This document shows positions 5,923-42,367 of a DNA stretch of 54,812 nucleotides, piece by piece. A model generated the notes under the pieces. The model saw nothing but the letters and a program-made list of their open reading frames with translations. It was not told the origin of the DNA and ran no database searches. The position numbers were made by a program, and so were the translations under genes. The DNA comes from Opitutia bacterium Tous-C4FEB (GTDB taxonomy: Bacteria; Verrucomicrobiota; Verrucomicrobiia; Opitutales; Opitutaceae), in the NCBI GenBank assembly GCA_002304445.1, contig NEVA01000022.1:1-54812 (forward strand), written 5' to 3'. The first letter of the stretch is position 1. Each line of letters opens with the position of its first letter.

Positions 5923-6762
5923 ATGTCAGTCTCATTTCGGACGCAACCTTGGTTGACGAGTGCGGTGCGCACGCCGCTCGGCGAGTTGCAGCTCGCCGGG
6001 ACGCTGAAGGACGCGCGCGGGCTCGATCCGCGGGCGATGCGGGTGCTGGGGAGTTTTTCGTTGATCTACATGGTGGATATGGACGGCTACTATTGCGACG
6101 CGCACGGGGTGAAGCGCGACCTCGTCTCGGGCGACCTCGTGCTGATCTGGCCGGAGCTGGCGCATGCTTACGGCCCGAAGCAGGGCAAAGGGTGGAACCA
6201 GATTTACTTTGTATTCGACGGGCCGGAATTTGAGTTCTGGCGGGAGCGAGGGTTGCTGTCGCCCGAGCGGCCGGTGCTGCACTTGGAGCCAGTGGACTAT
6301 TGGCGACGCCGGTTTGAGGAAGTCGTCGGCGCGGAGTCGCGTCACGGCGCGGGGGCTCCGCTGCGCGCGATGGGCCGTTTTCTGCATTTGTTGAGCGACA
6401 TTCTGGCGGCGAATGCGGACGCGCGGGGCAACCGTGAGGCCTGGCTGGAGCAGGCGTTGCAACTGCTCGGCACGCCCTCGGCCGACGGTTGGCCGACGCC
6501 CCAGCATGTCGCCCGCGCCGTGGGTCTGAGTTACGATAATTTTCGCAAGCAGTTCGCGGCCCGGACCGGCGTCTCGCCGGGCCTGCACCAGAAGCGGCAG
6601 CGGATCGAGCGGGCGTGTGCGGCGCTGTATCAGGGCAACGAGAGCTTCAAGGAATTGGCGGAGCAGTTGGAGTTCTGCGACGTGTTCCACTTCTCGAAGG
6701 CGTTCAAGCAAGTCGTGGGGCTGACGCCCTCGGAGTTTCGGAAAAAAGTGCGGGGCGGGTGA
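5923..6762 (+). CDS. AraC family transcriptional regulator
   Basis: A 279-residue DNA-binding regulator. The N-terminal half is a cupin-like sensor (segments such as MDGYYCDAHG and GDLVLIWPELAHAYG, with a histidine-bearing barrel edge). The C-terminal 90 residues are the double helix-turn-helix of AraC. The first helix pair is around HVARAVGLSYDNFRKQF and the second is around FKELAEQLEFCDVFHFSKAF, followed by the family signature VGLTPSEFRK. It is divergent from the PhyH gene; the 118-base space must hold both promoters. The ligand is unknown and probably a sugar-like metabolite. Confidence 0.92.
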   Translation: MSVSFRTQPWLTSAVRTPLGELQLAGTLKDARGLDPRAMRVLGSFSLIYMVDMDGYYCDAHGVKRDLVSGDLVLIWPELAHAYGPKQGKGWNQIYFVFDGPEFEFWRERGLLSPERPVLHLEPVDYWRRRFEEVVGAESRHGAGAPLRAMGRFLHLLSDILAANADARGNREAWLEQALQLLGTPSADGWPTPQHVARAVGLSYDNFRKQFAARTGVSPGLHQKRQRIERACAALYQGNESFKELAEQLEFCDVFHFSKAFKQVVGLTPSEFRKKVRGG

Positions 6763-13800: not shown

Positions 13801-15333
13801 CTAGAACTTCGGTGCACTCCGGCCGCTGGCTTTGGATTGTTCGAGCAGGGCCTTGAGTTCCTTCACCAGTTCCGGGCGCTCGGCGTAGAGGTTCCTCGTT
13901 TCACCAGGGTCGGTGTCGAGGTTGTAGAGATGGACGGGAGCGTCCGGCGCGGTGTCGGGGAGCATGAAAGGTTTCAAGCGGGGATTGTTTTCGTAGCGGT
14001 TTCCGCCGGATCCGGGGTGATCGAGATATTTCCAAGGTCCGCGCCGGATGGAGAGCGTGCGCGCGCCGGCGAAGGCTTGGGTGAGCAGGTAGGGGCGGAT
14101 GGGCGCGGTGGCTTCGCCGCGCAATGCGGGCAGCAGGTTGAAACTGTCTTCGGCGGCGTTGTCGGGCAGCTTGGCGTCGCTGATGGCCGCAATGGTCGCC
14201 ATCACGTCGGTGAGGCTGGTGAGTTGAGCGCTGGTGGTGCCGGGTTTCACCCGGGCGGGCCAGCGGACGAGGAAGGGCACGCGATGGCCGCCCTCCCAAC
14301 TGTCGCGTTTGATGCCGCGCCACGGTCGCGCGCCGTCGTGGCCGTGATCGGCGCGCATGTGGATGACGCTGTCGACTTCCGGACCGTTGTCGCTGGTGAA
14401 AATGACGAGGGTGTTGTCGGCGATGCCGAGTTTTTCCAGCGTGCTCATCAGCTCACCCACGACCCAATCGAGCTGGTGAATGAAGTCGCCGTGCGGTCCG
14501 GCGCCTGACTTTCCCTTGAACTGCGGGGCGGCGAACGAGGGCAGATGCACGGCCTGCGCCGCGTGGTAGAGGAAGAAGGGTTTGCCCGGCGTGGCGCGGA
14601 CGTGCTGCTCCAAAAACTCACGGCTCTTTTGCAGAAAGACGAGGTCCACTTCCTCCATGGGAAAATTCGGGGCGATCAAGCCGGGGCGGCAGTCGTTCGC
14701 GTAAGGGTGTTTCGGCAGCTTCGATTTATCGAGCGGACCGGCGGGCGGCACGGGCACGCGGTCGCCGTCGATGAAGGCGTAAATCCAATCGGTCGTGGGG
14801 CAGCACGCGGTGCCGAAGAATTTCTCAAACCCGTGGTCCACCGGCCCGCCTTCGACGCGACGACTGAAGTCAATGCGCTTCACCTCGTCCAGTTTGCCCG
14901 AGTGAATCGGCGCACCCGCCTGGTCGCGAAGCGTCAGGCCCACATGCCATTTGCCGACTGCAGCGGTGGCGTAGCCTTGGTGCTTCAGCATCGCCGGCAG
15001 CGTCAGGCGACCCGGAGCGATCAAGGAAGGTCCGCCGGCGCCTTGGAACACCGTGCCGCCATTCGGCACGCGAAACGCCATTTGGCCAGTCATCAAACTG
15101 TAGCGCGTCGGCGTGCAGACCGTGGCGGGACTGTGCGCGTCGGTGAAGCGCATCCCTTCGCGCGCGAGCCGGTCGAGATGCGGCGTGGCGACCTTCGACT
15201 GGTCGTTGTAGCAGCGCACATCGCCGTAACCGAGGTCGTCAGCGAGAATGAGCAGGATGTTGGGTTTCTGAGCCGCGCTTGCGGACGCAAGTGCTGCACA
15301 GAGCGCGACAAAAAAGAGCGGCAATGTTTTCAT
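13801..15333 (-). CDS. Secreted arylsulfatase (S1 family)
   Basis: A 510-residue exported sulfatase. The signal peptide is [20 protein letters not shown]. The metal site [10 protein letters not shown] follows, then the formylglycine cysteine C73 in CTPTR. Further landmarks are GKWHVG and the late metal residues FTSDNGPE. The C-terminal subdomain is marked by RRGPWKY and [14 protein letters not shown]. The ATG at 15333 overlaps the TGA of the dehydratase gene as ATGA, so translation is coupled. Extra loops with CYNDQSK and a CCPTTD segment could shape substrate choice, which cannot be read. It belongs to the minus-strand train. Confidence 0.95.
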
Positions 15334-16433
15334 GACACGACGACAACCGTCTGCCCGAGCACATCCATCTTTGGTGTGATGCCCAGACCGGGTGACGTGG
15401 AGGCGGCCATGCGACCGTTCACGCGTTGCGGCGCGCCATCGGCGATGCTCACCGGACCGTAGCTGTTGAAGTCGGTGGTGCTGAAGAGGAACTCCGTGGG
15501 CGTGCTGTGCGCGAGGTGCGCAATGGCGGCGGTGGCGATGTCGCCGCCCCATGAATCCTCCAGCGTCATGCCGATGCCCATGCTCACGCAGAGGTCGCGG
15601 GCCTGTTTGATCTTCGTGAGGCCGCCGAGCTTGCTGATCTTGAGATTCACCACGTCCATCCCGAGATCGGCCTTGGCGCGGAGCAGAATGCCGAGGTCGT
15701 CAATATTTTCATCCAGTATGAACGGGTGCGGAATCTGGCGGCGCACGGCGAGGCATTCCTCGTAGGTGAGGCAAGGTTGCTCAATATAGATATCCACGTC
15801 GCGCACGGCCTTGGCCACGCGCACGGCCTCGTGCTGCACCCAACCGGTATTGGCGTCGGCCACAAGCCGGTCGCCGGGCTGGAGCTTAGCGGCGACGGCG
15901 AAAATGCGCGCAATGTCGGTGTCCGGATCGCCGCCGACCTTGAGCTGGAAGCGGCGGTAACCCTCCGCGCGATAGCCCGCGACCTTCGCGGCCATGTGCT
16001 CCGGCGACTCCTGCGAGATGGCGCGGTAGAGATGCACGTCTTCGCCGTAACGGCCGCCGAGCAATTCGCACACGGGCATGCCGCACGCCTGACCGAGAAT
16101 GTCCCAGCACGCGATGTCGAGGCCGCTCTTCACGTAGGGATGACCTTTGAGCGCGGCATCCATCGTGCGATTAAGTTTCGCCAGCTGGCGCGGGTCTTCG
16201 CCGATGAGGTGGGGGCCGAGTTCGCGCAAACCGGCGCGCACGCCCTCGGCATAAGCCGGGAGATAAAATGGTCCGAGCGGACAAACCTCGCCGTGGCCGA
16301 CGAGTCCCGTGTCGGTCTCGACGCGCACGATGGTGCTGTCGAACACAGTGACGGATTTGCCGCCGCTCCACTTGTAGGTGGTCTCGTGCAGCGGAAGTTC
16401 AACTCGGTAGGCGAGGATGCGTTTTATTTTCAC
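15330..16433 (-). CDS. Enolase-superfamily dehydratase/epimerase, cis-3-hydroxyproline dehydratase-like
   Basis: A 367-residue cytoplasmic mandelate racemase/muconate lactonising enzyme family member. Metal ligands are D193 (VADANTGW), E218 (IEQP) and D241 (LDENID). The catalytic lysines are K165 ([10 protein letters not shown]) and K265 (NLKISKLGG), and LEDSWGGD is seen at 291-298. The combination [20 protein letters not shown] and FQLKVGG resembles the cis-3-hydroxy-L-proline dehydratase and hydroxyproline-betaine epimerase group as I recall it. An acid-sugar dehydratase is the alternative. The start is a GTG at 16433. It is coupled by ATGA to the sulfatase downstream. A second copy's tail remains at 31274-31399. 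Confidence 0.8.
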
Positions 16434-16458: not shown

Positions 16459-17937
16459 TCAGTGCTTGGGAATTTCGTTCAACGTGTAGTAGGCGCGATC
16501 GTGCAGCAGCGGCTCGCCGTCGCGGGATTTCAGCGCTGGTAGGTGAAAGTCGTGGACGTGGCCTTGCACCAGCCCGTTCACCCGCAGACGCGCGCTCATG
16601 CCATCGGGTGCCACCTCGGCAGTGGTCACGGTCGGGCGCGTGTGATCCACCTCGGGGCTGCCGTAGCCTTGCTGGTAAATGTGCGTGTAGGTCTTGAGCA
16701 CGTAGCTGTCCGGGCGCGAGGCGAGCGCGGAATCCACGGGCTTCGTAAAACGCACAATGAATCCATCGGACTGCGCTCGAATGTCGAGAATTTCGAAAGG
16801 CATCTTGCCGGTCCAGTCGAGGCGCTGGAGCAGGTTGTCCTTCATGCCGCGCACGGGCCAGCCGCGGTTCGTGCCGCCGGCGATGAGTTGTCCGCGCGGC
16901 GTGAAATGCACCGCAAGAATGCCCGTGCCCAGTCCCTCGCGGAACGGGTAACACGCGCCCTGCCACACGCCGTTGACCAGCTCGGTCGTCACGCGCATCA
17001 CGACGCTCAACGAGTAGTCGCCGACGAACATCTGGTTCTCAAAGGGCCCAAACTTTCCGCCCGAGCGGTTCACCTCGAACGCGGAAATCGAGCGGCCCAT
17101 TTTCTTGTAAGGGAACACCACGGCGTAAGGCACGAGTTCCTTCACGCGCTTGCGCTCGACTTCCATGCGCGAGGGCGTGTTGGGCTTCACCGGCTCCGGT
17201 CCCATGTTTGGCGCGAACGGATACCAGTTGAAACTGACGGGGTGTCCCATGAAGCCGCCGGGCTTGAGATGCTTCAGCGAACACGCGCCGTTCCACGGCC
17301 CCTGGCTCTCGACGTAGAACATTTCGCCGTGCTCGTTCTCGCCCACGCCGAGGGGGCTGCGCAGGCCGCTGCACAATGGGACGGTCTTCCCGTCCGGGGT
17401 AATTTTCAACGCCCACCCGCGAAACAACGCTTTCGAGTTGTACGATTCCGACAACCCGAGCGCGACGTATAGGTTCCCCGCCGCGTCAAACTTCGAGCCG
17501 AGCGCGAACTCGTGGTAGTGCCCAAAACCCCACTTGTCGCTCACGGTGTCGAATCGGTCCGCGCGACTGTCGCCGTTTGCGTCCGTGATGCGGGTGACTT
17601 CCGTGGCGTGCGTGGCGTAGAACGCCCCGTCGCGATGCGCGAGGCCCAACACTTCATCCAGCCCGCTGGCGAAACGATGCACGGTCGGACGCGGGTGTTC
17701 GTCCATCATGCCGTTTACCAGCAGAATTTCCCCGCGCCGCGTGCCCACCGCGAGCCGACCATCCGGCAGCGAAACGAAACTCCCGGCCTCCAGGTACACG
17801 CCCTCGGGCAGCGGAACGTTGACGATGCGGTAGTAAGCCGCTTCCCGTTCCGCCGTGCCCCAGGCATCGCCGAAATTCTCCGCCGCCGCGGCGGCAAACG
17901 GGAGCATGCACATCGAGATGATGAAGCGAAATTTCAT
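16459..17937 (-). CDS. Secreted PQQ-type/sorbosone-dehydrogenase-like propeller protein
   Basis: A 492-residue exported protein (signal [19 protein letters not shown]) with a six-bladed beta-propeller. Repeats such as [38 protein letters not shown] and [11 protein letters not shown] are typical. So are [18 protein letters not shown] and [15 protein letters not shown]. The C-terminal 100 residues form a separate beta domain. In this phylum such propellers often pair with CxxCH proteins and are thought to oxidise sugars. No heme motif is present here. Its ATG overlaps the stop of the five-heme gene by four bases, so the two proteins are probably made in equal amounts and act together. Confidence 0.82.
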
Positions 17938-20168
17938 GGTTTCGCAGCGATGTGGTATTCGATGCGCAGTTCCCCGCGCACGGGCACCAGGAGTTCCTTC
18001 CCTTCACCGGCACTGCGGACGATGGGCTCGGAGGGCAGACGCACGCGAAGGTGCTTGCCGACTTCCCACTCATGGGCACCGCGTGGCTCGATGATTTTGT
18101 CTAGGGCCACCCGGAAGTGCATGGCCGCCGGAGGCGCGGCGGGGAACTTCAGGGTCCGTTCGATAAACACCCTCCCAGCTGCGTCACGGCGTTCGATGAA
18201 GAAATCCTCCACAGAAAAGCCATCCACGGAATAGCGAAGCGTGGGACGTTGCTGGGCGTCGAGCGAGTAGCCCGTGAACGAATGCGGCGATGGGCCCGGC
18301 GTGGCATCGAGCGCCGGCCATCCGGCCTCTGGAGAGGCGAGCACCGCAAACGCAGGCCCGGGCGGGAAAGTAGTGATGTCCTTGCCCAGAATGCGCGCCT
18401 GACCCGAACCCTGGCCGCGCCAGAGGCCAGAGGCCTCGATGAACCCGCCGCTCCAGATTGAGCCAAGCCGCATCTGGCCTGCGTCGAAGGAAAGGTTGAT
18501 GCCGCCGGGATAACCCACGCCGATGCCGCGCTTGCCGACGCCGGGGAACGCTCGCCGGATGATGACCGCCTCATTCGGCACCGAGATGACGAGCGGCTCC
18601 AGCACCAAGCCCTGCGGCTCACGCGCCTCGGGACCGCGCTCAAGATATTGCCAGAGCACATCGCGCTGCTTGCCGGAGTCGCCGCCGAGCACATTAGGCA
18701 AAGGCGATTTGCCGTCTGGCCAAAAGCTCGGCATGATGGTGAGCGGCGAGAATTGCTGCGGATTGGCGAGGAAATGGTGAAACCAGTTTTCCTCCAGCCG
18801 CTCGGTCATGGTCGTCAAGTCCAGCGCGCGGATGGGCGCGGCGCTCTTCCCTCGGAAGGTGTGGCAGGCGATGCAATTGAACGCCTTGCTGCCGGCGAGT
18901 TCGCGTCCGATCTCGTGCGGCTTGTCGCGCTTGGCGACGCGCGTAAACTCCGCAGAGGGTAAGGTGTCGAGCTGCTTCAGCCAATTGGCGAAGCGCTCGG
19001 CGTTGGCCGCGCCAAACTTCGGCATCCGCGTATTGAGATAGGGCCGCGCCGACGCGCCGTTCACGACCACCTCGTGGAGCCAGTCGCGCTTGAGCTTCGC
19101 GCCGATGCCGGTGAGCGATGGTGGCAGGCGGCCTTGGTCGCCGAGATTTTCGTCCTGGCTGGTGAAGTAGGCGTTGCGATTCGCGGGCACACCGCCGAGT
19201 TCGCCGCGCTCGTGGCAAGCGAGGCAGTTCAAACGGGTGAGTGAAAGCTCGACGTTTTCGGCGACACTCAACGGCTCCGCCGGCGGAGCGAGCGCGGCGC
19301 GCACCGCCGTGCGTTGCGCGTCCGATAGCGAATACTGCGGCCACGCGCCGGGCTGGGGCGACAGGCACCCGCGCTCGGCGCGGACCTGGTCCAACGCCGC
19401 GAGGGACGGCATCGCGCGCGGTCCGTCGACGGTGTGACACGCATCGCAGCGATGGTGGGTGAACAGCATCTGGCCGCGCGTGGCGAGTTGCGGATCGGGA
19501 TGGAAGGCGGGCGGAGGCTCCGCTTGGTCACGCAGGAGATAGCTCGCGATGTCCACCGCCTCGAAGTGGTCGAGCTTCGCATCCGGCATTCGACCGCCGG
19601 GCCGAACCGTCAGCGGGTCCTCGAGAAATTTTGCGAGGCTGGCGAGGGAGTACTTCTCCGCCACCGGCCCGAGCGGCACCGAGTCCGCGAGCGGTGTCTC
19701 CGGCGAGTGGCACGCGACGCAACCGACAGAGTGATACAGCTTCCGCCCGCGCTCGACGGCCGGGGGAGCGGGCCGCGTGAAGGTCTGCGCCGCGCCGCCG
19801 AGCGTGGCGAGGTAATGCGCGAGCGCGTCCGCCGTGGCGGTGCGTTCGGCCGCCGGCAAATGGCCGAGCACAGCGGGCATCGTGGTGCCGGGCTTGGTGG
19901 CGGTAGGGTTGGCGATGAATTCGCGCAGATGCGCGCCGTGCGCCCGCGCGCCGACGGCGGAGAGGTCCGGGCCGGGCTTCGCCGCCAAATCCGCGCGCGT
20001 CGTGGCGTGACACGCCGCACAACTGAGTTCGCTGATCAGCACCGCGCCGGCGATTCTGGGCGATACCTGCTCAGGCCGCGCCAACCCGCCGATGAACGGC
20101 GGCTCCGCGCTGGCACCGCTCGTGGTGAACGGAAGCGCGGCGACGATGATGGCGATGAGCGGCTGCAT
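17934..20168 (-). CDS. Five-heme c-type cytochrome, secreted
   Basis: A 744-residue exported protein. The signal peptide MQPLIAIIVAALPFTTSGAS is followed by five CxxCH heme c motifs: CAACH (50-54), CVACH (150-154), CDACH (241-245), CLACH (315-319) and CIACH (432-436). Segments PGTTMPAV, PGGRMPDAKL and NTRMPKF contain methionines able to act as axial ligands. Residues from about 480 to the end are a heme-free beta-rich domain of unknown fold. It most likely carries electrons away from the neighbouring propeller enzyme in the periplasm. The start at 20168 was chosen for its signal peptide; an ATG at 20231 lies inside the previous gene. It overlaps the propeller gene by ATGA. Confidence 0.88.
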   Translation of the reverse strand: MQPLIAIIVAALPFTTSGASAEPPFIGGLARPEQVSPRIAGAVLISELSCAACHATTRADLAAKPGPDLSAVGARAHGAHLREFIANPTATKPGTTMPAVLGHLPAAERTATADALAHYLATLGGAAQTFTRPAPPAVERGRKLYHSVGCVACHSPETPLADSVPLGPVAEKYSLASLAKFLEDPLTVRPGGRMPDAKLDHFEAVDIASYLLRDQAEPPPAFHPDPQLATRGQMLFTHHRCDACHTVDGPRAMPSLAALDQVRAERGCLSPQPGAWPQYSLSDAQRTAVRAALAPPAEPLSVAENVELSLTRLNCLACHERGELGGVPANRNAYFTSQDENLGDQGRLPPSLTGIGAKLKRDWLHEVVVNGASARPYLNTRMPKFGAANAERFANWLKQLDTLPSAEFTRVAKRDKPHEIGRELAGSKAFNCIACHTFRGKSAAPIRALDLTTMTERLEENWFHHFLANPQQFSPLTIMPSFWPDGKSPLPNVLGGDSGKQRDVLWQYLERGPEAREPQGLVLEPLVISVPNEAVIIRRAFPGVGKRGIGVGYPGGINLSFDAGQMRLGSIWSGGFIEASGLWRGQGSGQARILGKDITTFPPGPAFAVLASPEAGWPALDATPGPSPHSFTGYSLDAQQRPTLRYSVDGFSVEDFFIERRDAAGRVFIERTLKFPAAPPAAMHFRVALDKIIEPRGAHEWEVGKHLRVRLPSEPIVRSAGEGKELLVPVRGELRIEYHIAAKP

Positions 20169-20178
20169 ATTCACTTGG

Positions 20179-22011
20179 TCACTGAGCCGGCTCCCAGATT
20201 TTAATGAGCAAGTCCTGCAACGCGGGATCATGCTCCTTCAGCTCGGCGCGGACGAAGGGATAGAAATCGTTTCGATAGAAAAACGCCTCCGTGCCCTCAG
20301 CGAAGTATTCCTTGTGATTGGTCAGGCCGTAGTGCTTCACCCTTTTGCCCGTGTGGGCGAGGACGTTTTCGTAATTGCCCGCCGCCTTTGCCTTCTCGAA
20401 AGCCGCGATAATCTCCGGGTGGTCGAAACTCAGGATCTGATCGTGATACGCGTGGGCCAGCTCGTGGAGAACCACGGCGGGGTGCTTGAGCATCTGCTCG
20501 CGCGAGAGCAGGTCGCGCGCCTGCGGGATATGTACCTTGCTCGTGAGGCGCGGGTCATGGCGGTTCGCCACCAGCCAGTCGCGGCTCGGATGGTATTGTT
20601 TGGACTTCAGCGTCGGGTGGCTGTGCTCGATCCAGATTTCCAGCGTCTGCATTTTCACCAACGGCCCCGCGGGGATGAAGATTTTGATGCGCTGCAAATG
20701 GTTCGCGAGCATCGCCAGCGCCTTCGCGCCTTCCTCGCGATGCTCGCCATCAATCAGCGTCGGCTCGATGTGAACCTTCCAGCCCTCGATGTCGCGCACG
20801 ACGGGATCGAAGCGCACGGCGCCCGTTGGCTTTGATTCGGATGGCTTCTCCAAGGGCTGCGGGGTGGCGTTGGCCGCATCGCTGCGGGCCTGCGCTTGCT
20901 GTCGGATCAGGGCTTTCAACTTCGCCAGCCGCTCGGGCCAAACGAACGCCGGCGCCTTCGCCGGGTCATAGCCCACCATGTGACCCGTGAGGCGCGTGGT
21001 GGGTTTGGTGTACTTCAACTCAGTGTCACCAAAGACCTCTCTGCAGATAGCGGCGAGGCCGGGATCGTATTCGAGCAGCTCGGCGCGCGTGTTGACGTGA
21101 TTGTGGTCGTGGTCGTTCTCCCGGTTGTCATCAAACCAGCTCTGCACGCCCTCCGCGAAATACTCGTAATGATTCACGCTCGCGTATTTGCCCTTCCATA
21201 ACCCGGCCTTCATCGCGTCGTCGTAGGCGGCCTTGACGCGTGCGTCGAACGTCGGGTCCACGTTCGACAAGCCGCGCAGGTGCATGTTATGGGCGAATTC
21301 GTGGATGAGGATGTTCTCCTTCGCGTAAGGATCGCCGACGTAAGCGAGCAGGTTTTCCTCAGCGCAGGAACAGAACGGATCCCGCTCGCTGCCGCCCATG
21401 CCGCGCGCGCGCGCATCGCGGTAATCGCGGGCGGGAACGCCGGGGAAATCCGGCACAGGAGTCGCCGCCATCCATTGCCACTCCGGCTGGTCGCAGGTGA
21501 ACTCGTTCCACGCGAGGATGGAGAGGCGCGCGCCACTTTGTATCATCGCGGCGCGCACGTCAGGGCGTTTGGCCAGCATCAAGTCCACGAGATAGGCGGC
21601 TTCCTTGAGCGCGTAGGGGTTCACCGTGGCCGATGCCACGATCGGAAAACCGCCCGCGCTCACCCGTTGCGTGTAGAACGCCGGCACGCCGTCCTTGTCC
21701 GGCGGATCAAAACGAACCCCCTGCACCGGCACCTGGCTGGTGACGACGCGCTCGGCCTGGTCGTCGCGGCCAACGATGGTGAAGCGGTGGCCGAGCGTGG
21801 TTGGGATGACGGTGTTCGCACCCGGCGCGACGGAGCCGTGCGGCACGCGCTCGTTTTCGCTCTTGAGCCAGAACACGTCCGCGGCCTGCTGGCTGCCGTT
21901 GATGATCTGGAGCCGAGGGCGAGCCGTTTGGCTTGGGTTGCTCGGTGCGGCCGAGCGTGTCGTGCAAACTCCACTGAGGAGCAGGAGGAGCGCGATACCG
22001 ATGGATTTCAT
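20179..22011 (-). CDS. Secreted VHL-like domain protein with two metallopeptidase domains
   Basis: A 610-residue exported protein (signal 1-20). Residues 33 to about 95 (LQIINGSQQAADVFWLK, then HRFTIVGRDD) resemble the beta domain of the von Hippel-Lindau protein. Two zinc-peptidase-like domains follow. The first has HEFAH (237-241) and NHYEYFAEG (280-288); the second has HELAH (516-520) and NHKEYFAEG (565-573). Each also carries D-P-x-L (EYDPGLAAI and EHDPALQDL), so the two halves are tandem copies. HExxH plus a distal E is the gluzincin-type zinc site. CSC at 214-216 lies near the first site. The likely role is cleavage of an extracellular protein. It sits between a sulfatase and the five-heme gene with gaps of 24 and 10 bases. 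Confidence 0.78.
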   Translation of the reverse strand: MKSIGIALLLLLSGVCTTRSAAPSNPSQTARPRLQIINGSQQAADVFWLKSENERVPHGSVAPGANTVIPTTLGHRFTIVGRDDQAERVVTSQVPVQGVRFDPPDKDGVPAFYTQRVSAGGFPIVASATVNPYALKEAAYLVDLMLAKRPDVRAAMIQSGARLSILAWNEFTCDQPEWQWMAATPVPDFPGVPARDYRDARARGMGGSERDPFCSCAEENLLAYVGDPYAKENILIHEFAHNMHLRGLSNVDPTFDARVKAAYDDAMKAGLWKGKYASVNHYEYFAEGVQSWFDDNRENDHDHNHVNTRAELLEYDPGLAAICREVFGDTELKYTKPTTRLTGHMVGYDPAKAPAFVWPERLAKLKALIRQQAQARSDAANATPQPLEKPSESKPTGAVRFDPVVRDIEGWKVHIEPTLIDGEHREEGAKALAMLANHLQRIKIFIPAGPLVKMQTLEIWIEHSHPTLKSKQYHPSRDWLVANRHDPRLTSKVHIPQARDLLSREQMLKHPAVVLHELAHAYHDQILSFDHPEIIAAFEKAKAAGNYENVLAHTGKRVKHYGLTNHKEYFAEGTEAFFYRNDFYPFVRAELKEHDPALQDLLIKIWEPAQ

Positions 22012-22035: not shown

Positions 22036-23418
22036 TTACTTCGCCGCTTTGCGAACCGGCAGCCGCGCGTCGGTTTGCCGCAGCCACGCATCAAGCTTGT
22101 CCTTGAGCCGCCGGACAATTTCCGGGTGTTGTTGAGACAGGTTCTCTTCCTCGCCGATGTCGCTGGAGAGTCGATAGAGTTCGAGCTCACCGTTGTCGTA
22201 GTAGGTGATGAGCTTGAAATCCCCTGCACGCATCGCGCTGCCGAGACGGTTTTTCTTGTGGAAGGCGTAGTTGGGGTAGTGGAAGAAGATGGCGTCGCGG
22301 TCGAAGCCTGGTTTTTGCTCGAACAAAGTGATCAGACTGCGCCCATCCAAAGTGCTGCCAGGAGCCGGCTGCAGGCCGGCGGCTTCGAGCAGCGTGGGGT
22401 GGCAGTCCGTACTGATGACTGGGGTGGCGCAAATGGACCCGGTCGGCACCCTGCCCGGCCAGCGGACGATCCACGGCACGCGAAGGCCGCCCTCATAGAG
22501 CGTTCCCTTGAAGCCGCGCAGCGGCCGGTTGTCGCCGCTGTATCCACCATTGTCGGACTTAAAGAGGATCAGCGTGTTGTCGCGCAGCCCCGCTTCATCG
22601 AGTTGCTTGAGGAAGCCCCCGATGGCGGCATCCATACCCTCGATCATTGCAGCGTAAACCGGATCTTTCACCTCTTTGCCCTGCCGGTATTTCGCGATCA
22701 GCTCGGCGGGCGCCTGCATCGGGTAATGAACGGAGTAAGGCCACCAATTCAAAAAGAACGGACGGTCACGGTTGCTGCTAACAAAGTTCATCGCCTCGTC
22801 GGCCAGCCGCGACGGCAAATATTCCCCCGCTGCGCCATCCTTGAGGGTGGAGTTTCGATACGGTGAAAAGTAGCTGGGCGGGCCTCCGCTCGAGTTGCCT
22901 CCAACATTCACGTCGAAGCCCTGCTTCTCGGGATAGAGCTCGCGCTGATCGAGCTGCTCGCTACCGCGCGGGTTGACATACGAAAGATGCCACTTGCCGA
23001 CGTGACCGGTGGCGTAGCCGGCCGCGGACAAGCGCTCGGCGATGGTCGTGTAGGAAAGCGCGAGATTCCGGACGGTTTCGGGCTCCTGCAGATCGGAGCC
23101 GGGCAGCGAGAATCCGTCCGGATTACCCGGGGCATGATTGGTGAGCCGCAATCGCGCCGGGGCCAGACCGGTCATCATCGCGGCGCGGGTAGGCGAGCAG
23201 ACGGGAGCTGCGGCATAGGCATCCGTAAACCGCATACCCTCCGCGGCCAACTGGTCGAGGAACGGTGTGTCGATCTGCTCGTTGCCGTAGCAATGAAGAT
23301 CCCGCCAGCCGAGATCATCAGCCATGATGACAACAATGTTCGGCTTGGGCGCAGCGCACAGGGTGATGCCCAGCGTGCAGAGCCACAGGCCGAAAAGTGG
23401 GTAAATGGTTTTCATCAT
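22036..23418 (-). CDS. Secreted sulfatase (S1 family)
   Basis: A 460-residue exported sulfatase with a signal peptide ending near residue 22. The metal site is VIMADDLGWRD, and the formylglycine cysteine is C74 in CSPTR. GKWHLS, the second metal site LFKSDNGG and the end MRAGDFKLI and LYRLSSDIGEEENL complete the fold. The length and the GWRDLHCYG start resemble arylsulfatases common in marine Verrucomicrobiota. It is in the train, 43 bases after TonB receptor 1 and 24 before the metallopeptidase gene. The substrate is unknown. Confidence 0.95.
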   Translation of the reverse strand: MMKTIYPLFGLWLCTLGITLCAAPKPNIVVIMADDLGWRDLHCYGNEQIDTPFLDQLAAEGMRFTDAYAAAPVCSPTRAAMMTGLAPARLRLTNHAPGNPDGFSLPGSDLQEPETVRNLALSYTTIAERLSAAGYATGHVGKWHLSYVNPRGSEQLDQRELYPEKQGFDVNVGGNSSGGPPSYFSPYRNSTLKDGAAGEYLPSRLADEAMNFVSSNRDRPFFLNWWPYSVHYPMQAPAELIAKYRQGKEVKDPVYAAMIEGMDAAIGGFLKQLDEAGLRDNTLILFKSDNGGYSGDNRPLRGFKGTLYEGGLRVPWIVRWPGRVPTGSICATPVISTDCHPTLLEAAGLQPAPGSTLDGRSLITLFEQKPGFDRDAIFFHYPNYAFHKKNRLGSAMRAGDFKLITYYDNGELELYRLSSDIGEEENLSQQHPEIVRRLKDKLDAWLRQTDARLPVRKAAK

Positions 23419-23461: not shown

Positions 23462-26400
23462 TCAGAAGGTGCCCTTCACCCCGGCCGTCCACGCCACGCC
23501 AAACTTATTGGTGATTCCAACCTTGGCGTAGCCGGGCGTCTGCGAACCGTAGCGGAGCTGAAGATTATTTACGTCGAGAATGTTGCGGCCATTGAGGAAC
23601 AGCGACAGCCGGCGGTTGAACTGATAGGTGGCGTTCACGTCCATCGTGGTTCGCTTCTCCTGAGCGTTGCGCGCATCCGGTCCCATGGTCGGCACGCTGC
23701 CAAATGACTGTTCTCCGCGGGCGTTCCACTTGAGCATGACGGTGACGGGATTTCGCGTGAAGGTGCCGCCCCAGTTGACGTTTTCGGGGATGAAACTCCC
23801 GAACGCCGCGGTGCGGCTGCCCATGAGCTTCAGTTTCGTGGCGTTGGCGAAGACGGAGAAATGCCGGCCCCATTTGCCCAGTGACTGGAGGGACTGGCGG
23901 ACGTTGAACTCGATCCCGTCCACGCGCGCATCGCCGCCGTTGACCGTAGTGGTGAGCATCCAGCCGACGTATTCCGGCTCGATGCCGAGTGCCTCTAGGT
24001 CCGCCGCGGTGGCTAGCGTCACGCGGTTATCAAAGAAGCCGGCGATATCCTTGCGAAATGCGCCGACACTCCATACGCCGCCGGTGTCGGTGTAGTATTC
24101 GGCGGAGAGGTCGAAGTTGTCCGCCTTCCACGGTTGGAGTGCCGGATTGCTGACGTTGAGCGAACCGCGAAGGACGGACGGATCCGCGCCCTCGGCGACG
24201 TCATTTTCAGTGACGGTCGTATTGGGAATGAGGTTGCCGTAGTCGGGCTTGCCGTAGGTCAGCGCATAGGCGGCGCGGAACAAGAGGTTGGCTGTGGCGT
24301 TGTAGGTGAGATGGACGCTGGGATAGTAGTCTTGGTAGCCGCCGTTGGTGCCCTGACCGAGTTCGGTGCGGACTAGGCGCAAATCCTCCATCGAGCCGAC
24401 GGCGCCGGCCTCGGGGCGGCGGAGGCGGACGCCCGCGGCATCGCGGGCGAAGGCCCCGGACGCGGTACGGACAAAGGCGTTGCCGGGCTCAAAGAGCGGG
24501 CCCTGCGCCTTGGTGTGGATCCGCTCGAAGCGCACACCCGCGAGCGCGTTCAGCCGGTTGTTGAGGAGCTTCGCCTCACCCTGAAGGTAAATGCCCGTGG
24601 TGATTTCCTTGAATGTCTCCGAGCCGTTGATGCGAGCCTGCTCCGAGGCCACCAGCTGCGCGGCCGTTTGCGTGAAAAGGTTCGGATTTTTCCCCCATGC
24701 CTCGACCATGCGGTTGGGCGAAGCCCAGGGAATAGGCTGCTGGGCCCAGTAGTTGGGGTGGCCGCGGTAAACTTGCATGGCGAACGGCGTGAGTGTGGGG
24801 TCGGCGGGATTGGCCGGATTGTAGGTGTAGCCGAGCGACGCCCGTCGGTGGTCGCGGTCTTGGATACCGAGGAGGCCACCGACCTGTAGGGAGACGGGCA
24901 CTTTGAACAAGCTCAGGCTGCGCTTCACGTTGAGATCTAGCCCGGCCGTGTCGTCGGTGTAATTGCGATACGTGCCGGAGTTTGCGGTGTTGAGGCGGAA
25001 GTTACGCAGGTCGAAGAGGTCGATCTCGCGGTTGTTGGCGTCGAACACGCGGGTGATGCCCGGGCCCTCGGGGCGAATGTCCTCGAAATTCACGCGTACG
25101 CCGGTAGCCGCCAGCAGGCTGCTGCCGAAGCTGTTGAAATGGCCCTTCGCGATGGTGCGACGCCAGGTAATGGACTTCGAGGCGTTAGCGCCGGCGTCGA
25201 TCAACCACTCGGCGCTTTGATAACGGTAGCGCGTGTTGGCGCTGAGAGTCTTCGCGTAGTCGTGGAGAAAATTCGAGCCGAAGCCGGCGGTACCGCGCCC
25301 TGTCGCGCTGCGCGCGAAGTTTTCGCCGAAGGTGAGCGGTACGCCGCCGGCGATCGAGGGCGCCGCAAGGGTGCCGACGCTGGTGGTGCGCTGGAGGTTG
25401 CCGTTCACGTAGCGGTAATAGTTGGCCTGCATGCCGAGTGTGAGGACGGAGTTAGGGGAGACGCGCCAGTCGAGCTTCAGACCGGCCGAGTTGCGGTCGC
25501 GCCATTTGGGCGCTTCGAGCAGCGTGTGGGTCTGGAGATACGGCCGCGACGGAGTGGCGCCGGCGGCGGTGGCGTTCCACGTCGTGTTCACCGTATCTTG
25601 GTTGGTCATCGTGAATGACTGCAGCGCTGTCAGCACGAGGCCGAAGTTCTTGGTGACCGGGAGAGTGTAATCGAAGTCAAAGCCGAGCTTCACCGGGCGC
25701 TCGCGGGTGTCGAAGGGGAACGGCTGCGGGGAGGTCTTTAGATTGTCGCCATGGCCAGAAAAGGTCAGGCGGTAGTTGAGTTGGGCGCGGCTGCGCTCGA
25801 ACGAGTTTTTGCTGACCATGTTCACGTTGCCCGAGAGGCCGCTGGCGGGATTGGCGGGCGTGGGCACCTTGGTTACCTCGATGCGCGAGACGTTGTTGAT
25901 CGAGACCTGGATGAAGTCGAATCCGCGGGAGGAACCGATGCGCGCGGAATTGGCCATGGTGGCGCCGTCAGTCGTCACGTTGGTCAGGGCGCTGCCGAAG
26001 CCGCGGATCGAGACCGCTGTGGGCATCTCGTCCTCGTAGCCGACGGTCACTCCCGGCAGGAAGCGCATAAATTCGGCGATGTTGCCCTCAGGGACGTCGC
26101 CGAAGGCGTCGGTGGAGACGACGTTCTTGATGTTCGGCGCGAAGCGCTGCTCGTTGGTCGCGAGCGCCTCGCCTTCGGTGAGTTTGGAAGCCGTGAGCAC
26201 GAACGGATCGAGTTTCATGACGCGGGATTTGTCCTCAGCAGTCGCCCGACTGGTGAGGCTGATGTCGCGCACGACGGCTTGGCCCGGCGCGAGCGACAGT
26301 GCGATCTGCTGCGGATCGAGTCCGGAATAAAACGTTTCCAGAATCACCGTGCCGCTGGGGACCCCGGCGAGCCGGAAGATTCCGTAGCTGTCGGTGAACG

Positions 26401-26572
26401 CCATGAGATCGGTGCCCTTGACGGTCACGCGGACGTTGAGGAGGTATTGGCCGGTGACTTCGCTCTGCACGCGGCCGGAGACGGCGCCGGGCGTAGTCTG
26501 CGCCTGCGCGCAAGGCACGAAGGCGAGCAACATCGCGGTACACGCTGCCAAAAGGAACGACGGGGTTTTCAT
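23462..26572 (-). CDS. TonB-dependent receptor with carboxypeptidase-regulatory-like domain
   Basis: A 1036-residue outer-membrane receptor. The signal peptide (MKTPSFLLAACTAMLLAFV) is followed by a carboxypeptidase D regulatory-like beta domain at about 30-115 (GAVSGRVQSEVTGQYL, SYGIFRLAGVPSGT). The linker (VMKLDPFVLTASK) probably contains the TonB box. The plug includes FLPGVTVGYED, AVSIRGFGSAL, IEVTKVPTPANP and GLSGNVNMVSK. A 22-strand barrel ends in a C-terminal phenylalanine (GVKGTF). It takes up a large ligand, probably an oligosaccharide or peptide from the substrate of the locus. The ATG at 26572 fits the signal peptide; a GTG at 26602 would overlap the sulfatase end. Confidence 0.92.
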   Translation of the reverse strand: MKTPSFLLAACTAMLLAFVPCAQAQTTPGAVSGRVQSEVTGQYLLNVRVTVKGTDLMAFTDSYGIFRLAGVPSGTVILETFYSGLDPQQIALSLAPGQAVVRDISLTSRATAEDKSRVMKLDPFVLTASKLTEGEALATNEQRFAPNIKNVVSTDAFGDVPEGNIAEFMRFLPGVTVGYEDEMPTAVSIRGFGSALTNVTTDGATMANSARIGSSRGFDFIQVSINNVSRIEVTKVPTPANPASGLSGNVNMVSKNSFERSRAQLNYRLTFSGHGDNLKTSPQPFPFDTRERPVKLGFDFDYTLPVTKNFGLVLTALQSFTMTNQDTVNTTWNATAAGATPSRPYLQTHTLLEAPKWRDRNSAGLKLDWRVSPNSVLTLGMQANYYRYVNGNLQRTTSVGTLAAPSIAGGVPLTFGENFARSATGRGTAGFGSNFLHDYAKTLSANTRYRYQSAEWLIDAGANASKSITWRRTIAKGHFNSFGSSLLAATGVRVNFEDIRPEGPGITRVFDANNREIDLFDLRNFRLNTANSGTYRNYTDDTAGLDLNVKRSLSLFKVPVSLQVGGLLGIQDRDHRRASLGYTYNPANPADPTLTPFAMQVYRGHPNYWAQQPIPWASPNRMVEAWGKNPNLFTQTAAQLVASEQARINGSETFKEITTGIYLQGEAKLLNNRLNALAGVRFERIHTKAQGPLFEPGNAFVRTASGAFARDAAGVRLRRPEAGAVGSMEDLRLVRTELGQGTNGGYQDYYPSVHLTYNATANLLFRAAYALTYGKPDYGNLIPNTTVTENDVAEGADPSVLRGSLNVSNPALQPWKADNFDLSAEYYTDTGGVWSVGAFRKDIAGFFDNRVTLATAADLEALGIEPEYVGWMLTTTVNGGDARVDGIEFNVRQSLQSLGKWGRHFSVFANATKLKLMGSRTAAFGSFIPENVNWGGTFTRNPVTVMLKWNARGEQSFGSVPTMGPDARNAQEKRTTMDVNATYQFNRRLSLFLNGRNILDVNNLQLRYGSQTPGYAKVGITNKFGVAWTAGVKGTF

Positions 26573-26598
26573 GATGAGTGGTAAAACACAAGAGCACT

Positions 26599-28044
26599 TC
26601 ACTGCTTTGCGGCGGCGGGCTTTTTTGCGTAGCCGTTCGCCACTTTCTTGAGTGTGGCGGCGACGAGGGCTTTGTTTTCCCGGTCAGCGTATGCTTCGCT
26701 AAACGGGTCGCCGGTGCGGCGCATGAGGGCGAGGAGGTCGGCGCGCATGGCTTCGATTTCTTCGCGTCGCGTGGCGTCGGCGATGAGATTGGTGCGCTCG
26801 TTCGGGTCGGTACGGAGGTCGTAGTATTCTTCTGGAGCGCGGCGGAGATAGAAGTCGGTGCGGGCTTTGATTTCCGGGCTCGTTGCGGCGGCGGCGAGCA
26901 TCGCCTTCCAAGTGAGGCCGGACATGTTTTCGGTGGAATACTTGCGCTGGCCATCACTCCAGACGTTCCAAATGTAGGCGCGGTCACGCGTGCGGACGCA
27001 GCGCATGGGGAGCCAATTGTTGCCGAAGGCGGCATTGTAGAAGGTGAAAACGCGGTCCCAGCCGGGCAGCGTTTCACCCTTCACCACGGGCAGGAATGAG
27101 CGCCCGTCTACGCCGGGAATCGGCGGCAACCCAGCGGCGTCGAGCAGCGTGGGTGTGAAGTCGAGCGCGGCGACGAGGTGCGCGCGATCCACGGCACCGG
27201 GCTTCGTCACGCCGGGCCAGCGCAGAATGAGAGCGCCGCGCGAGCTATTCTCGTAGCAATTCGATTTGCCGAACGGAAACGACATGCCGTGGTCGCCAGC
27301 CCAAAAGACGACGAGCGTGCTGTCGGCGAGGTCTTCCTCGGCCAGCACGGCGAGCACGGCGCCGAGCGCGTCATCGAGCCGGCGCACATTCGTGTAGTAG
27401 CCGGCGAGTTCGCGCCGGACGTCGGGCAGGTCTTCGAGAAAGCCGGGCACGCGCGTGATTTCCTCCACCGTCACGCGGCGGCTGGGCTCCTCGCCGCCCG
27501 CGAGATCGTCCGCGCCCCGCATGCCGATGAACGGGCGGTGCGGGTCGTAGCAATTCACGTTGTGGAAAAACGGGCGGCGCTGCTCGCGCGCGGTCCGGAG
27601 AAACTGGCGCGTGGCGGCCGCGAGTTTCATCGGGTGACGCGCGATCTTGTCGTCCGCTTCTTGGGCATGGAATTTCTCCGCCGGTTGGTGGTGCGGCGTC
27701 TTCCCAAACGCCGAGATGAGATACCCCGCGTCGTGCAACTGCTGCTGAAGCGTCCGCACCTCGGTTTGCAGCGGAAAGAAACCCATTGAGCCAGTGCGGT
27801 GCGGATAGCGTCCGGTGAACATGGTTTGGCGCGACGGCTGGCAGACCGCGACCGTGGTGTAGGCGCGCTCGAAGCGCAGCCCCTGCGCGGCGAGCCGGTC
27901 AATGTGCGGCGTGAGGTCTTTAATGGGGCCGCCATAAACGCCGCTGGAATCGAAGTTCATGTCGTCCGCGGTGAAGAGCAGGATGTTCAGCGGCGCGGCC
28001 ATGGCGGAAGCGCCGAGGAGGCAGAGGATGGCGAGGAGCTTCAT
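26599..28044 (-). CDS. Secreted sulfatase, heparan N-sulfatase-like
   Basis: A 481-residue exported sulfatase with a short signal peptide (MKLLAILCLLGASAMA). The metal site is LFTADDMNFD, and C68 is in CQPSR, where Q replaces the usual S/T/A of CxPxR. YPHRTGSMGF after the active site and the GKTPHHQP and CYDPHRPFIG segments resemble N-sulfoglucosamine sulfohydrolase-like (S1_8) enzymes. The second metal site is FWAGDHGMSFPFGKSNCYE. Heparan-like N-sulfate is therefore a possible substrate but unproven. It is 26 bases upstream of TonB receptor 1, in the train. Confidence 0.93.
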   Translation of the reverse strand: MKLLAILCLLGASAMAAPLNILLFTADDMNFDSSGVYGGPIKDLTPHIDRLAAQGLRFERAYTTVAVCQPSRQTMFTGRYPHRTGSMGFFPLQTEVRTLQQQLHDAGYLISAFGKTPHHQPAEKFHAQEADDKIARHPMKLAAATRQFLRTAREQRRPFFHNVNCYDPHRPFIGMRGADDLAGGEEPSRRVTVEEITRVPGFLEDLPDVRRELAGYYTNVRRLDDALGAVLAVLAEEDLADSTLVVFWAGDHGMSFPFGKSNCYENSSRGALILRWPGVTKPGAVDRAHLVAALDFTPTLLDAAGLPPIPGVDGRSFLPVVKGETLPGWDRVFTFYNAAFGNNWLPMRCVRTRDRAYIWNVWSDGQRKYSTENMSGLTWKAMLAAAATSPEIKARTDFYLRRAPEEYYDLRTDPNERTNLIADATRREEIEAMRADLLALMRRTGDPFSEAYADRENKALVAATLKKVANGYAKKPAAAKQ

Positions 28045-28305
28045 GGCGGATGCGGGATGGGTGCGATTTCCGCCCGGGTCCGGCACAGGAATTCGAGTCC
28101 TCGGCAGGGCCCAGGTGCCCGAGGGGGGACGATGCGCTTGCCGAGCGGCTCGCGCCGGACACTCCGGGGCGGGTGACTAGAGTTGGGTGAAGCGGATGAC
28201 GACATGGAGTCGCGCGATCGGCGGAGATCGGCGGGAGGAGGCGCGTTTTTTCGAGCGGAAGGAAGGTCCCGCGGCCCACGCCCCGGGCTGCAACGAGCGG
28301 CGCTC

Positions 28306-40132: not shown

Positions 40133-41419
40133 ATGCGTCATGCTCCAATTGACCCGAAGCTATTCACTGGAAGCCGCGAGCGCCTCAAAAAATCGCTGCC
40201 ACCGAAGTCCCTCGCCATCGTCAACGCCAACGACGTCTTGCCCACGAACGCCGATGGTTCGCTCCCACTCCAGCCGAACTCCGACCTCTTTTACCTCACC
40301 GGCATCGAGCAGGAGGAAAGCATCCTGCTCCTCGCGCCCGATGCTCATGAGCCGAAACACCGAGAAATCCTTTTCCTGCGCGAGCCAAGCGCGCGCTTGA
40401 AAATTTGGGAGGGCCACAAGCATTCCAAAGACGAGGCCACCCAGATCTCGGGCATCAAGCAGGTCAAATGGCTTTCTGAGTTTCCCGTCATCTTTCGCAT
40501 TCTCATGTGCGAGCAGGAGCAAGTCTGGCTCAACTCTAACGAACACACGCGCGCCCATGTGGAGGTGGAGACGCGCGACGCCCGATTCGCTCGCGAGTGC
40601 CAGCGCCAATTCCCATTGCACACCTACCATCGGCTCGCGCGACTCCTGCACCCGCTGCGCGTGGTGAAGAGCGCCGCGGAGATTGAACTGCTCAAGGAAT
40701 CTGTCCTCATCACGGAGAAGGGCTTTCGGCGAGTGCTCAAGTTCGTGAAGCCGGGTATCACGGAATATGAAGCTGAAGCAGAGCTTGCACACGAGTTTCT
40801 CCGCCGCCGCGCAAGGTTCGCCTATAATCCCATCATCGCGAGCGGTAAAAATGCCTGCGTACTGCACTACAACCAAAACGACCAAGTTTGTAAAACAGGT
40901 GATCTTTTGTTGCTAGACGTTGGTGCATGCTACGCGAACTACAACGCCGATCTCACCCGCACCATTCCTGTGAGCGGTCGCTTCACGCGTCGGCAGAAGG
41001 CGGTTTACAATGCTGTCCTCCGGGTCATGCGCGCGAGCATTGCGGGCGCGACCGTCGGCAAGCTTTCGCGTGACTGGCTCAAGGAGTCACAGGCGATGAT
41101 GAATGAGGAATTGCTCGCGCTCGGCTTGCTCAAGAAGTCGGACATCAAGAAGCGGAACGAGGACGAGCCCGCTTCCCGAAAGTATTTCATGCACGGCCTC
41201 GGCCATCCGCTAGGGCTGGATGTCCATGACGTTGGCTTCACCACAGAGCCCTTTGCGCCCAGCTGGGTACTTACCGTCGAGCCGGGAATCTATATTCCGG
41301 AGGAAGGCTTTGGCGTGCGGTTGGAAAACGACATCGTGGTCACGGCGGATGGCCCGATTGACTTGATGGAAAACACGCCGGTCGAAGTCGATGAAATTGA
41401 GGACTTAATGAACCGTTAA
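40133..41419 (+). CDS. pepP: Aminopeptidase P family Xaa-Pro peptidase
   Basis: A 428-residue cytoplasmic metallopeptidase that removes residues preceding proline. The N-terminal domain (NSDLFYLTGIEQEESILLL) and the pita-bread C-terminal domain are complete. Metal ligands are D262 (LLLLDVGACY), D273 (NADLTRT), H358 (HGLGHPLG), E383 (TVEPGIY) and E398 (RLENDIVVT), with H245 (LHYNQND) as the usual proton shuttle. The start is the ATG at 40133. The DapA-like gene follows after 39 bases on the same strand, which suggests a joint role in breaking down proline- or hydroxyproline-containing peptides. Confidence 0.93.
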   Translation: MRHAPIDPKLFTGSRERLKKSLPPKSLAIVNANDVLPTNADGSLPLQPNSDLFYLTGIEQEESILLLAPDAHEPKHREILFLREPSARLKIWEGHKHSKDEATQISGIKQVKWLSEFPVIFRILMCEQEQVWLNSNEHTRAHVEVETRDARFARECQRQFPLHTYHRLARLLHPLRVVKSAAEIELLKESVLITEKGFRRVLKFVKPGITEYEAEAELAHEFLRRRARFAYNPIIASGKNACVLHYNQNDQVCKTGDLLLLDVGACYANYNADLTRTIPVSGRFTRRQKAVYNAVLRVMRASIAGATVGKLSRDWLKESQAMMNEELLALGLLKKSDIKKRNEDEPASRKYFMHGLGHPLGLDVHDVGFTTEPFAPSWVLTVEPGIYIPEEGFGVRLENDIVVTADGPIDLMENTPVEVDEIEDLMNR

Positions 41420-41458: not shown

Positions 41459-42367
41459 ATGAAACCCTACTGGACCGGCGTTTTCCCCGCCTGCACAACT
41501 CAACTTAAAAAAGATCAGTCCATCGACTTGCTCGCCACGGCGCGGCATTTCGAAGTGCTCATTCAAAGCGGTGTTTCGGGTCTCATCGTTTGCGGCTCGC
41601 TCGGCGAAAACCAGACGCTCGACCCCGATGAGAAACGCGCGGTGGTGAAGTGCGCCATCGAAACCGCGAAGGGCCGCGTACCGGTCTTGAGTGGCGTCGC
41701 CGAATCCTCCACGCGTGCGGCCATCTGTTACGTGCGCGATGTGGAGCAACTCGGCGCAGCGGGCGTGATGCTGATGCCGGCGATGAGTTACAAAGGCGAT
41801 CCGCGCGAGAGCATGACTTACCTCCGGGCGGTCGCGAAGGGTGGCGGCTTACCCATCATGATTTACAACAATCCACTGAGCTATGCGAACGATATCCCGC
41901 CCGCCCTGATTGTCGAACTGGCAGATGAGCCGAAGTTCGTCGCCATCAAGGAAAGCTCCGGCGATCCACGGCGTATTACCGAGCTGCGCAACGCTGTCGG
42001 CGATCGCTACGCCGTCTTCACTGGCGTGGATGACCTGCTACTTGAAGCGGCCATCCTCGGCATCGACGGCTGGGTAGCAGGCACGGGCATCGCGTTCCCC
42101 GCCGAAAATCAACGTCTGTGGGAGCTCACACGCGCGGGTAAGTGGGACGAGGCACGCGCGCTCTACCGTTGGTTCCAGCCACTCCTCAAACTCGACACCC
42201 ACGTACACTTTATTCAATACATCAAGCTCTGCGAGCAGCAGACGGGGCTTGGTTCCGAGTGGGTCCGTGCCCCGCGCCTGACCATCACCGGCGACGAGCG
42301 CAAAGCTGTGCTGAAGATTATCCGTGATGGCATCTCCAAGCGCCCAAAGGTCCCGAAACGCAAATGA
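41459..42367 (+). CDS. DapA-family lyase, hydroxyproline-pathway deaminase-like
   Basis: A 302-residue TIM-barrel aldolase-type enzyme. The Schiff-base lysine is K164 (VAIKESSGDPRR) and the partner tyrosine is Y136 (LPIMIYNNPLSY). CGSLGENQTL (45-54) replaces the substrate loop GTTGE. The start WTGVFPACTTQL, the block GVDDLLLEAAILGIDGWVAG and the end WVRAPRL look like the 1-pyrroline-4-hydroxy-2-carboxylate deaminase branch of the family rather than true dihydrodipicolinate synthase. This is recall-based. The start is the ATG at 41459. It follows the Xaa-Pro peptidase in an apparent two-gene operon. Confidence 0.85.
   Translation: MKPYWTGVFPACTTQLKKDQSIDLLATARHFEVLIQSGVSGLIVCGSLGENQTLDPDEKRAVVKCAIETAKGRVPVLSGVAESSTRAAICYVRDVEQLGAAGVMLMPAMSYKGDPRESMTYLRAVAKGGGLPIMIYNNPLSYANDIPPALIVELADEPKFVAIKESSGDPRRITELRNAVGDRYAVFTGVDDLLLEAAILGIDGWVAGTGIAFPAENQRLWELTRAGKWDEARALYRWFQPLLKLDTHVHFIQYIKLCEQQTGLGSEWVRAPRLTITGDERKAVLKIIRDGISKRPKVPKRK

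Follow-up and report, generated by a model that had tools for sequence, protein, structure and literature searches.

VHL is known from animals as the reader of hydroxylated HIF, where it acts as an intracellular regulator. A gene in the window, by which we mean the whole 54,812-nucleotide stretch analysed here, joins a VHL-like module to two metallopeptidase domains in what is probably an exported bacterial protein. This locus raises the question of what such a module would do on a secreted peptidase, and whether it would hold hydroxyproline there.

Domain architecture of the 610-residue protein

The gene (20179..22011, minus strand) has an ATG start, its ends coincide exactly with those of the open reading frame (ORF), and it is the sole match of its kind within its own genome. 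Its 610-residue product begins with what looks, by eye, like a signal peptide, and comprises a beta-sandwich (residues 31-106; 21694..21921, delimited by structure models and the pocket alignment described below), a peptidase domain A (residues 103-385; 20857..21705) and a peptidase domain B (residues 398-610; 20182..20820), all on the minus strand. The domain arrangement is not read from the full-length model (pLDDT 86.0, pTM 0.60). No NCBIfam model covers the protein (best E 0.09), and a whole-protein phmmer search against PDB sequences gives nothing meaningful (best E 0.91).

The N-terminal domain had been likened to the VHL beta domain in the sequence-only reading, and structure bears this out clearly. 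With the AlphaFold2 model of residues 22-112 (pLDDT 87.2, pTM 0.75), all 50 Foldseek matches listed are pVHL complex entries (best E 7.9e-5), as are all 50 listed for the full model. Superposition on pVHL with VIA-align gives Z 9.7 (2.7 Å over 78 residues) for the domain model and Z 10.4 (2.2 Å over 76 residues) for the full model. Among the 50 VIA-align matches listed for the domain model, 49 are pVHL entries and the last is an AlgF domain (6czt) at Z 8.5, a modest margin of about 1.2 below the best pVHL entry. In the models the domain thus has the pVHL beta-sandwich fold; the Elongin-binding alpha domain of pVHL shows no sign in the model of the window protein.

By sequence, VHL is reached only through intermediates. 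The 610-residue sequence itself has no Pfam VHL match at E ≤ 10, leaving the gathering score of PF01847 (VHL) unreached. Searched against PDB sequences, a profile built from 14 N-terminal domains misses VHL as well, its nine matches (best E 0.13) being BMP-receptor-type or receptor kinase entries over 22 positions; a VHL call from this sequence alone was therefore rejected. A PF01847 search of the organism's own genome returns one unrelated place at E 0.69, a threshold at which 4 of 14 control genomes also match. The intermediates lie at other loci. The N-terminal domain of a relative at locus L013 is 56% identical to that of the window and scores 19.8 bits with PF01847 (cut-off 21), and locus L017 has this module in four genes; scanned separately, two of the four give 19.3 and 18.8 bits. 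One bacterial VHL domain borne by an S9-type peptidase matches human VHL in the PDB at E 1.6e-9 in single-sequence phmmer. Of 288 genomes from the phylum, 18 have a bacterial VHL domain above the PF01847 cut-off, as do 63 of 384 from the class and none of the 14 controls. The bridging homologues support homology of the window's N-terminal domain to these bacterial VHL domains.

Two HExxH sites had been proposed as well, and both are intact: HEFAH at residues 237-241 of domain A (21289..21303, minus strand) and HELAH at 516-520 of domain B (20452..20466, minus strand), and after each comes a Tyr with a Glu seven residues further on (Y276/E283, 21163..21186; Y561/E568, 20308..20331, both minus strand). 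An alignment of 48 sequences chosen from 80 relative loci shows all five residues without exception, in 21 of 21 A domains and in 38 of 38 B domains. The description of the two sites as nearly identical is true of the motifs only; the domains have diverged to 33% identity over 104 residues (E 2e-9), and with no long DNA match between them a recent tandem duplication was rejected.

The pairing, which had been called rare, is not unique. A single match covers both domains at ten of the 80 loci; 11 others match only A and 55 only B, so that each domain is also found as a separate protein, and two further loci (L019, L021) carry the tandem in the order B then A, without a VHL-like domain. By record title, which can be wrong, the closest relatives are metagenome-assembled Verrucomicrobia and Planctomycetes; five contigs (L022, L026, L027, L029, L033) are titled, for example, Akkermansia muciniphila or Klebsiella pneumoniae, probably incorrectly, as they look like environmental Verrucomicrobia. 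Other fusions exist among the relatives. At L010 (7893-11876) and L011 (2888-6865) a single ORF of about 1330 residues combines the VHL-A-B peptidase with a complete S9-type peptidase, and its VHL-like domain has lost Trp88 (pVHL numbering); L039 and L049 have a SASA-like esterase domain ahead of B, and L047 has an extra enzyme-like N-terminal part.

Structurally, domain A is closest to Pro-Pro endopeptidases (PPEPs). The best 15 of 50 VIA-align matches to model residues 117-328 are PPEPs (Z 14.3 to 12.4), led by PPEP-2 (6fpc_B; Z 14.3, 3.5 Å, 181 residues). Domain A shares with PPEP-1, -2 and -3 the modelled fold, the HExxH motif and the Tyr with a Glu seven residues after it, and by analogy to the PPEP-3 active-site set (His153, Glu154, His157, Tyr190 and Glu197; PMC12828418) Y276 and E283 would be the catalytic-type Tyr and the third ligand of a predicted zinc ion. 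It differs from the PPEPs in being only about 15% identical to them and in its fusion with a VHL-like domain and another peptidase, and Pro-Pro cleavage is putative. Domain B matches catalytic domains of the ATLF type (for example Z 11.8, 4.3 Å, 181 residues in VIA-align). Around the HExxH motifs of both domains, Peptidase_M90 (PF06167; 25.0 bits, cut-off 26.2) and ATLF (PF07737; 24.7 bits, cut-off 27.4) give weak matches, all below the curated cut-offs.

The hydroxyproline pocket of bacterial VHL-like domains

The VHL module is carried by several kinds of enzyme. A purpose-built VHL profile yielded 133 match rows, overlapping fetches included, of which 78 are S9/DPPIV-type proteins, 12 sulfatases, 11 domain-A peptidases, 9 tandem A+B peptidases, 3 combined S9 and peptidase ORFs and 20 others; in the S9 protein of L017 both DPPIV_N and Peptidase_S9 score above their cut-offs. 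A 1663-residue ORF (L135:3391-8379, also in L108) has five tandem VHL-like units near its N-terminus, and two short ORFs of 127 and 132 residues (L121:7916-8296, L125:7853-8248) consist mostly of the VHL-like domain, the pVHL pair G114-H115 reading Thr-His in the rows listed.

Human pVHL holds hydroxyproline through Trp88, Tyr98, His110, Ser111, His115 and Trp117, with Ser111 and His115 bonding the hydroxyl and Tyr98 bonding the carbonyl (PMC9528729). The equivalents in the window protein are W48 (Trp88), H58 (Tyr98), T71 (Ser111), H75 (His115) and F77 (Trp117). Dropping identical domains from the 133 rows left 107 distinct bacterial domains, most of them found by PF01847 and hence biased towards VHL-like sequences, and one row of the window's type (L012) is cut by a contig end. 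With the whole pocket defined as Trp88, Tyr or Phe at 98, Ser or Thr at 111, His115 and Trp117 all kept, it is present in 58 of 61 S9-borne domains, 5 of 7 domain-A peptidases with a C-terminal VHL, 2 of 10 sulfatases and 5 of 14 other carriers. The window's type has it in none of 15, and its subfamily accordingly lacks the full set of Trp88, Tyr98, Ser111, His115 and Trp117.

The loss is uneven across positions. The sequence-only reading had asked whether the hydroxyproline contacts are conserved and had taken their loss across homologues as grounds to abandon the idea. Within the 15 domains of the window's type, Trp88 is kept in 11 (one has a gap, and 3 of the 14 with a residue there have lost it), Thr replaces Ser111 in 13 and His115 persists in 12; all 15 have lost Tyr98 and carry Phe for Trp117, so that the loss named there as a refutation is half borne out. 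By these per-residue counts the type mostly retains the fold and the two hydroxyl-bonding residues and lacks the carbonyl contact. Because Tyr98 and Trp117 are changed in every member, we file the N-terminal domain as VHL-like and not as VHL. It resembles the pVHL beta domain (PF01847, human VHL) in fold, at Z about 10, and in the equivalents of Trp88, His115 and, as Thr, Ser111; unlike human pVHL, it belongs to a bacterial enzyme that is probably secreted, and its subfamily does not keep Tyr98 and Trp117.

The idea that the module reads hydroxyproline thus stands in part: the fold and an epimerase link at other loci speak for it, and the partly kept pocket of the subfamily speaks against it. 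Direct reading of hydroxyproline by the window copy is plausible but putative. More speculatively, the altered pocket may prefer another form such as 3-hydroxyproline, a different isomer being suggested by the coincidence of that pocket with a cis-3-hydroxyproline enzyme in the window.

Gene linkage with hydroxyproline catabolism

Catabolism of trans-4-hydroxyproline proceeds through an epimerase, a dehydrogenase and a DHDPS-type deaminase. At L017 (3-9871), one strand carries in order a DHDPS gene, a VHL-A-peptidase, a sulfatase-VHL, a 4-hydroxyproline epimerase, a second sulfatase-VHL, an S9-VHL and a D-amino-acid dehydrogenase, the DHDPS gene being so named for its 63% sequence identity with the PF00701 protein of the window. 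Four different VHL-bearing hydrolases that are probably secreted are here interleaved with the trans-4-hydroxyproline pathway, which makes L017 a better test object than the window. Consecutive genes at L033 encode a B peptidase (77% identical to the window's domain B), a cis-3-hydroxyproline dehydratase (82% to its window relative), a DHDPS protein (88%), an epimerase and a dehydrogenase. At L163, an S9-VHL gene sits between relatives of the window's M24 peptidase (83%) and DHDPS-family protein (89%), with an epimerase and a dehydrogenase coming next, and L203 groups DHDPS, domain-A peptidase, epimerase, S9-VHL and dehydrogenase. For all 11 epimerases scanned the best NCBIfam model is 4-hydroxyproline epimerase, each scoring under the equivalog cut-off. 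The same epimerase, D-hydroxyproline dehydrogenase type, DHDPS-type deaminase and LhpJ-type dehydratase are described for the Lhp clusters (PMC5144071); compared with the clusters as presented there, the loci here add VHL-bearing peptidases and sulfatases that are probably exported.

Genome-wide counts agree. Among 384 genomes of the class, PF05544 (proline-racemase-family epimerase) occurs in 103, domain A in 77 and VHL in 63. PF05544 is present in 67 of the 77 genomes with domain A and in 36 of the 307 without (Fisher P 2.8e-37), and in 38 of the 63 VHL genomes against 65 of the 321 others (P 9.8e-10), both values ignoring kinship. Within a single family of 145 genomes, searched to curb relatedness, it occurs in 60 of 62 genomes with domain A and in 26 of 83 without (P 2.2e-17, finer relatedness ignored), and five more genomes of that family have domain A and epimerase starts 1-2.3 kb apart. 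Domain A lies within 10 kb of an epimerase in 10 of the 67 genomes with both (0.4 expected), and VHL does so in 9 of 38, spread over eight families (0.2 expected), the expectations assuming uniform placement in 4.9-Mb genomes and ignoring kinship. Domain A is near VHL in 11 of 34 genomes, including genes with both in one ORF.

The 85 VHL regions fetched (about 1.25 Mb; a match in genome G241 and two in G438 left out) contain an epimerase in 9, an L017-type DHDPS in 8, an L017-type dehydrogenase in 10 and all three in 7. In 54 B-peptidase loci each of these genes occurs once, at L033, which is itself a hydroxyproline locus, so that this comparison set is not neutral. The enolase-type dehydratase occurs in none of the 85 VHL regions, in 2 of the 54 B-peptidase loci and in 4 of the 80 peptidase loci, two of the four being close relatives. 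Taken together, the linkage of the VHL module and of peptidase domain A with 4-hydroxyproline epimerase genes at other loci is strong.

The window itself holds a hydroxyproline-type enzyme, as the sequence-only reading had supposed. The gene at 15330..16433 (minus strand; PF13378, PF02746) encodes an enolase-type cis-3-hydroxyproline dehydratase of the LhpJ type and scores 605.4 bits with the equivalog model NF043002, 105 bits above its cut-off of 500. LhpJ epimerises and dehydrates cis-3-hydroxyproline, for which peptide antibiotics, not collagen, have been suggested as the natural source (PMC5144071). Further along the window lie an aminopeptidase P-type (X-Pro) M24 peptidase, recognised by sequence matches (40133..41419, plus strand), which is 83% identical to the gene preceding the S9-VHL gene of L163 and 54% identical to the gene directly preceding the tandem gene of L006, and the DHDPS-family gene (41459..42367, plus strand; PF00701), which, judged by its context, is likely a pyrroline-hydroxycarboxylate deaminase. 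A search of the organism's own genome (96% complete) finds no PF05544 match and no relative of the L017 D-amino-acid dehydrogenase, and the usual trans-4-hydroxyproline route is thus not found there.

The immediate neighbours in the window annotation are a sulfatase upstream (22036..23418, minus strand) and a cytochrome c-type protein downstream (17934..20231, minus strand), whose annotated start overlaps the peptidase gene and whose true start is probably later. Two TonB-dependent receptors (23462-26602 and 28306-31233) surround another sulfatase (26599-28086), all three on the minus strand. A PhyH-family (Fe/2-oxoglutarate) oxygenase is encoded at 4872-5972 (minus strand), with nothing to mark it as a prolyl hydroxylase, and an AbiEi-type antitoxin (45343-46134, plus strand) and a type I/III restriction-helicase-like protein (36406-38115, minus strand) lie among metabolic genes.

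Substrate and competing explanations

We favour, with moderate confidence, the reading that the 610-residue protein is exported and works as a peptidase in a bacterial system digesting hydroxyproline-containing proteins. The N-terminal sandwich would be a substrate-holding module from a family that also sits on S9 prolyl peptidases, sulfatases and metallopeptidases, domain A a Pro-Pro-endopeptidase-like cutter acting near proline or hydroxyproline, and domain B an ATLF-type cutter; X-Pro-type peptidases would shorten the released peptides, and breakdown of free hydroxyproline would follow inside the cell. Use of hydroxyproline-containing protein is the likely service of the A and B peptidases. 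Counted against this reading are the missing Pfam VHL match of the protein itself, the absence of the window's dehydratase from the 85 VHL regions and the sub-cut-off scores of all 11 epimerases beside VHL genes. Owing to the altered pocket, the lack of PF05544 and of the dehydrogenase in the organism's own genome and the 25 of 63 VHL genomes in which the epimerase is missing, we keep the claim on the peptidases' role apart from the claim on hydroxyproline binding.

The resemblance to VHL might be convergence on a common small beta-sandwich, given the failure of the 14-sequence profile to find VHL and the closeness of the unrelated AlgF domain; with N78, W88, G114 and H115 matching ungapped, pVHL entries filling 49 of the 50 matches listed, a sequence bridge through L013, L017 and the S9-borne domains, and the match of one such domain to human VHL, we regard this as very improbable. 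A more serious alternative, although still somewhat unlikely in our judgement, accepts the homology and holds that the subfamily's domain has lost hydroxyproline binding and serves as a spacer or binds another residue or a glycan, the peptidases' own specificity serving hydroxyproline-rich proteins. The invariable change at Tyr98 and Trp117, the occasional loss of Trp88 and the existence of stand-alone A and B peptidases without a VHL-like domain fit it, whereas the hydroxyl-bonding residues mostly remain as Thr and His, and the Phe at Trp117 is invariant and not drifting.

The window could also be an ordinary sulfated-polysaccharide locus dedicated to glycan uptake, in which the peptidase does no more than open up a glycoprotein's protein core and the dehydratase has some other substrate. 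Its at least six sulfatases, two TonB receptors, SASA esterase and ThuA protein are what such a locus would contain, and the SASA-fused B peptidases of L039 and L049 are matched by the window's SASA protein; we nevertheless consider it unlikely, since the dehydratase clears its equivalog cut-off by so wide a margin and, inside a single family, the presence of domain A goes with that of the epimerase. Both this reading and the digestion of hydroxyproline-containing protein would be compatible with a sulfated hydroxyproline-rich glycoprotein, a natural candidate substrate given the many sulfatases and two TonB receptors of the window and the sulfatases that carry the VHL module elsewhere. Chlamydomonas and Volvox are covered by hydroxyproline-rich glycoproteins (PMC10762512), which Latescibacteria have been inferred to use (PMC4454575).

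Bacterial VHL domains are already known (Pfam; PMC9002001). The VHL-domain protein of Litorilituus sediminis is likewise an exported bacterial protein with a VHL-like module, and its description, as far as available, concerns tumour suppression and draws no tie to hydroxyproline catabolism, S9 peptidases or sulfatases (PMC9002001). The open-access literature searched, partly with other aims, yielded no report tying VHL to secreted prolyl peptidases, PPEP-like peptidases or hydroxyproline catabolism.

Beyond the digestion of hydroxyproline-containing proteins by this one peptidase, we tentatively raise the possibility that in this class VHL beta domains read hydroxyproline outside the cell, as interchangeable parts that direct S9, PPEP-like and sulfatase hydrolases of hydroxyproline-burning operons to hydroxyproline-rich glycoproteins, and that the window's subfamily has been retuned, perhaps to 3-hydroxyproline. 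If so, the reader that animals use in oxygen sensing would have its counterpart, or its source, in bacterial nutrient capture. A bacterial VHL family with the same pocket on proline-type peptidases that are probably secreted would offer an independent system for the ligand and the origin of the VHL fold. The analysis names candidate peptidase families for Pro/Hyp peptide libraries, and predicts an unrecognised route for the breakdown of hydroxyproline-rich glycoproteins, for example of the kind found in green-algal walls (PMC10762512).
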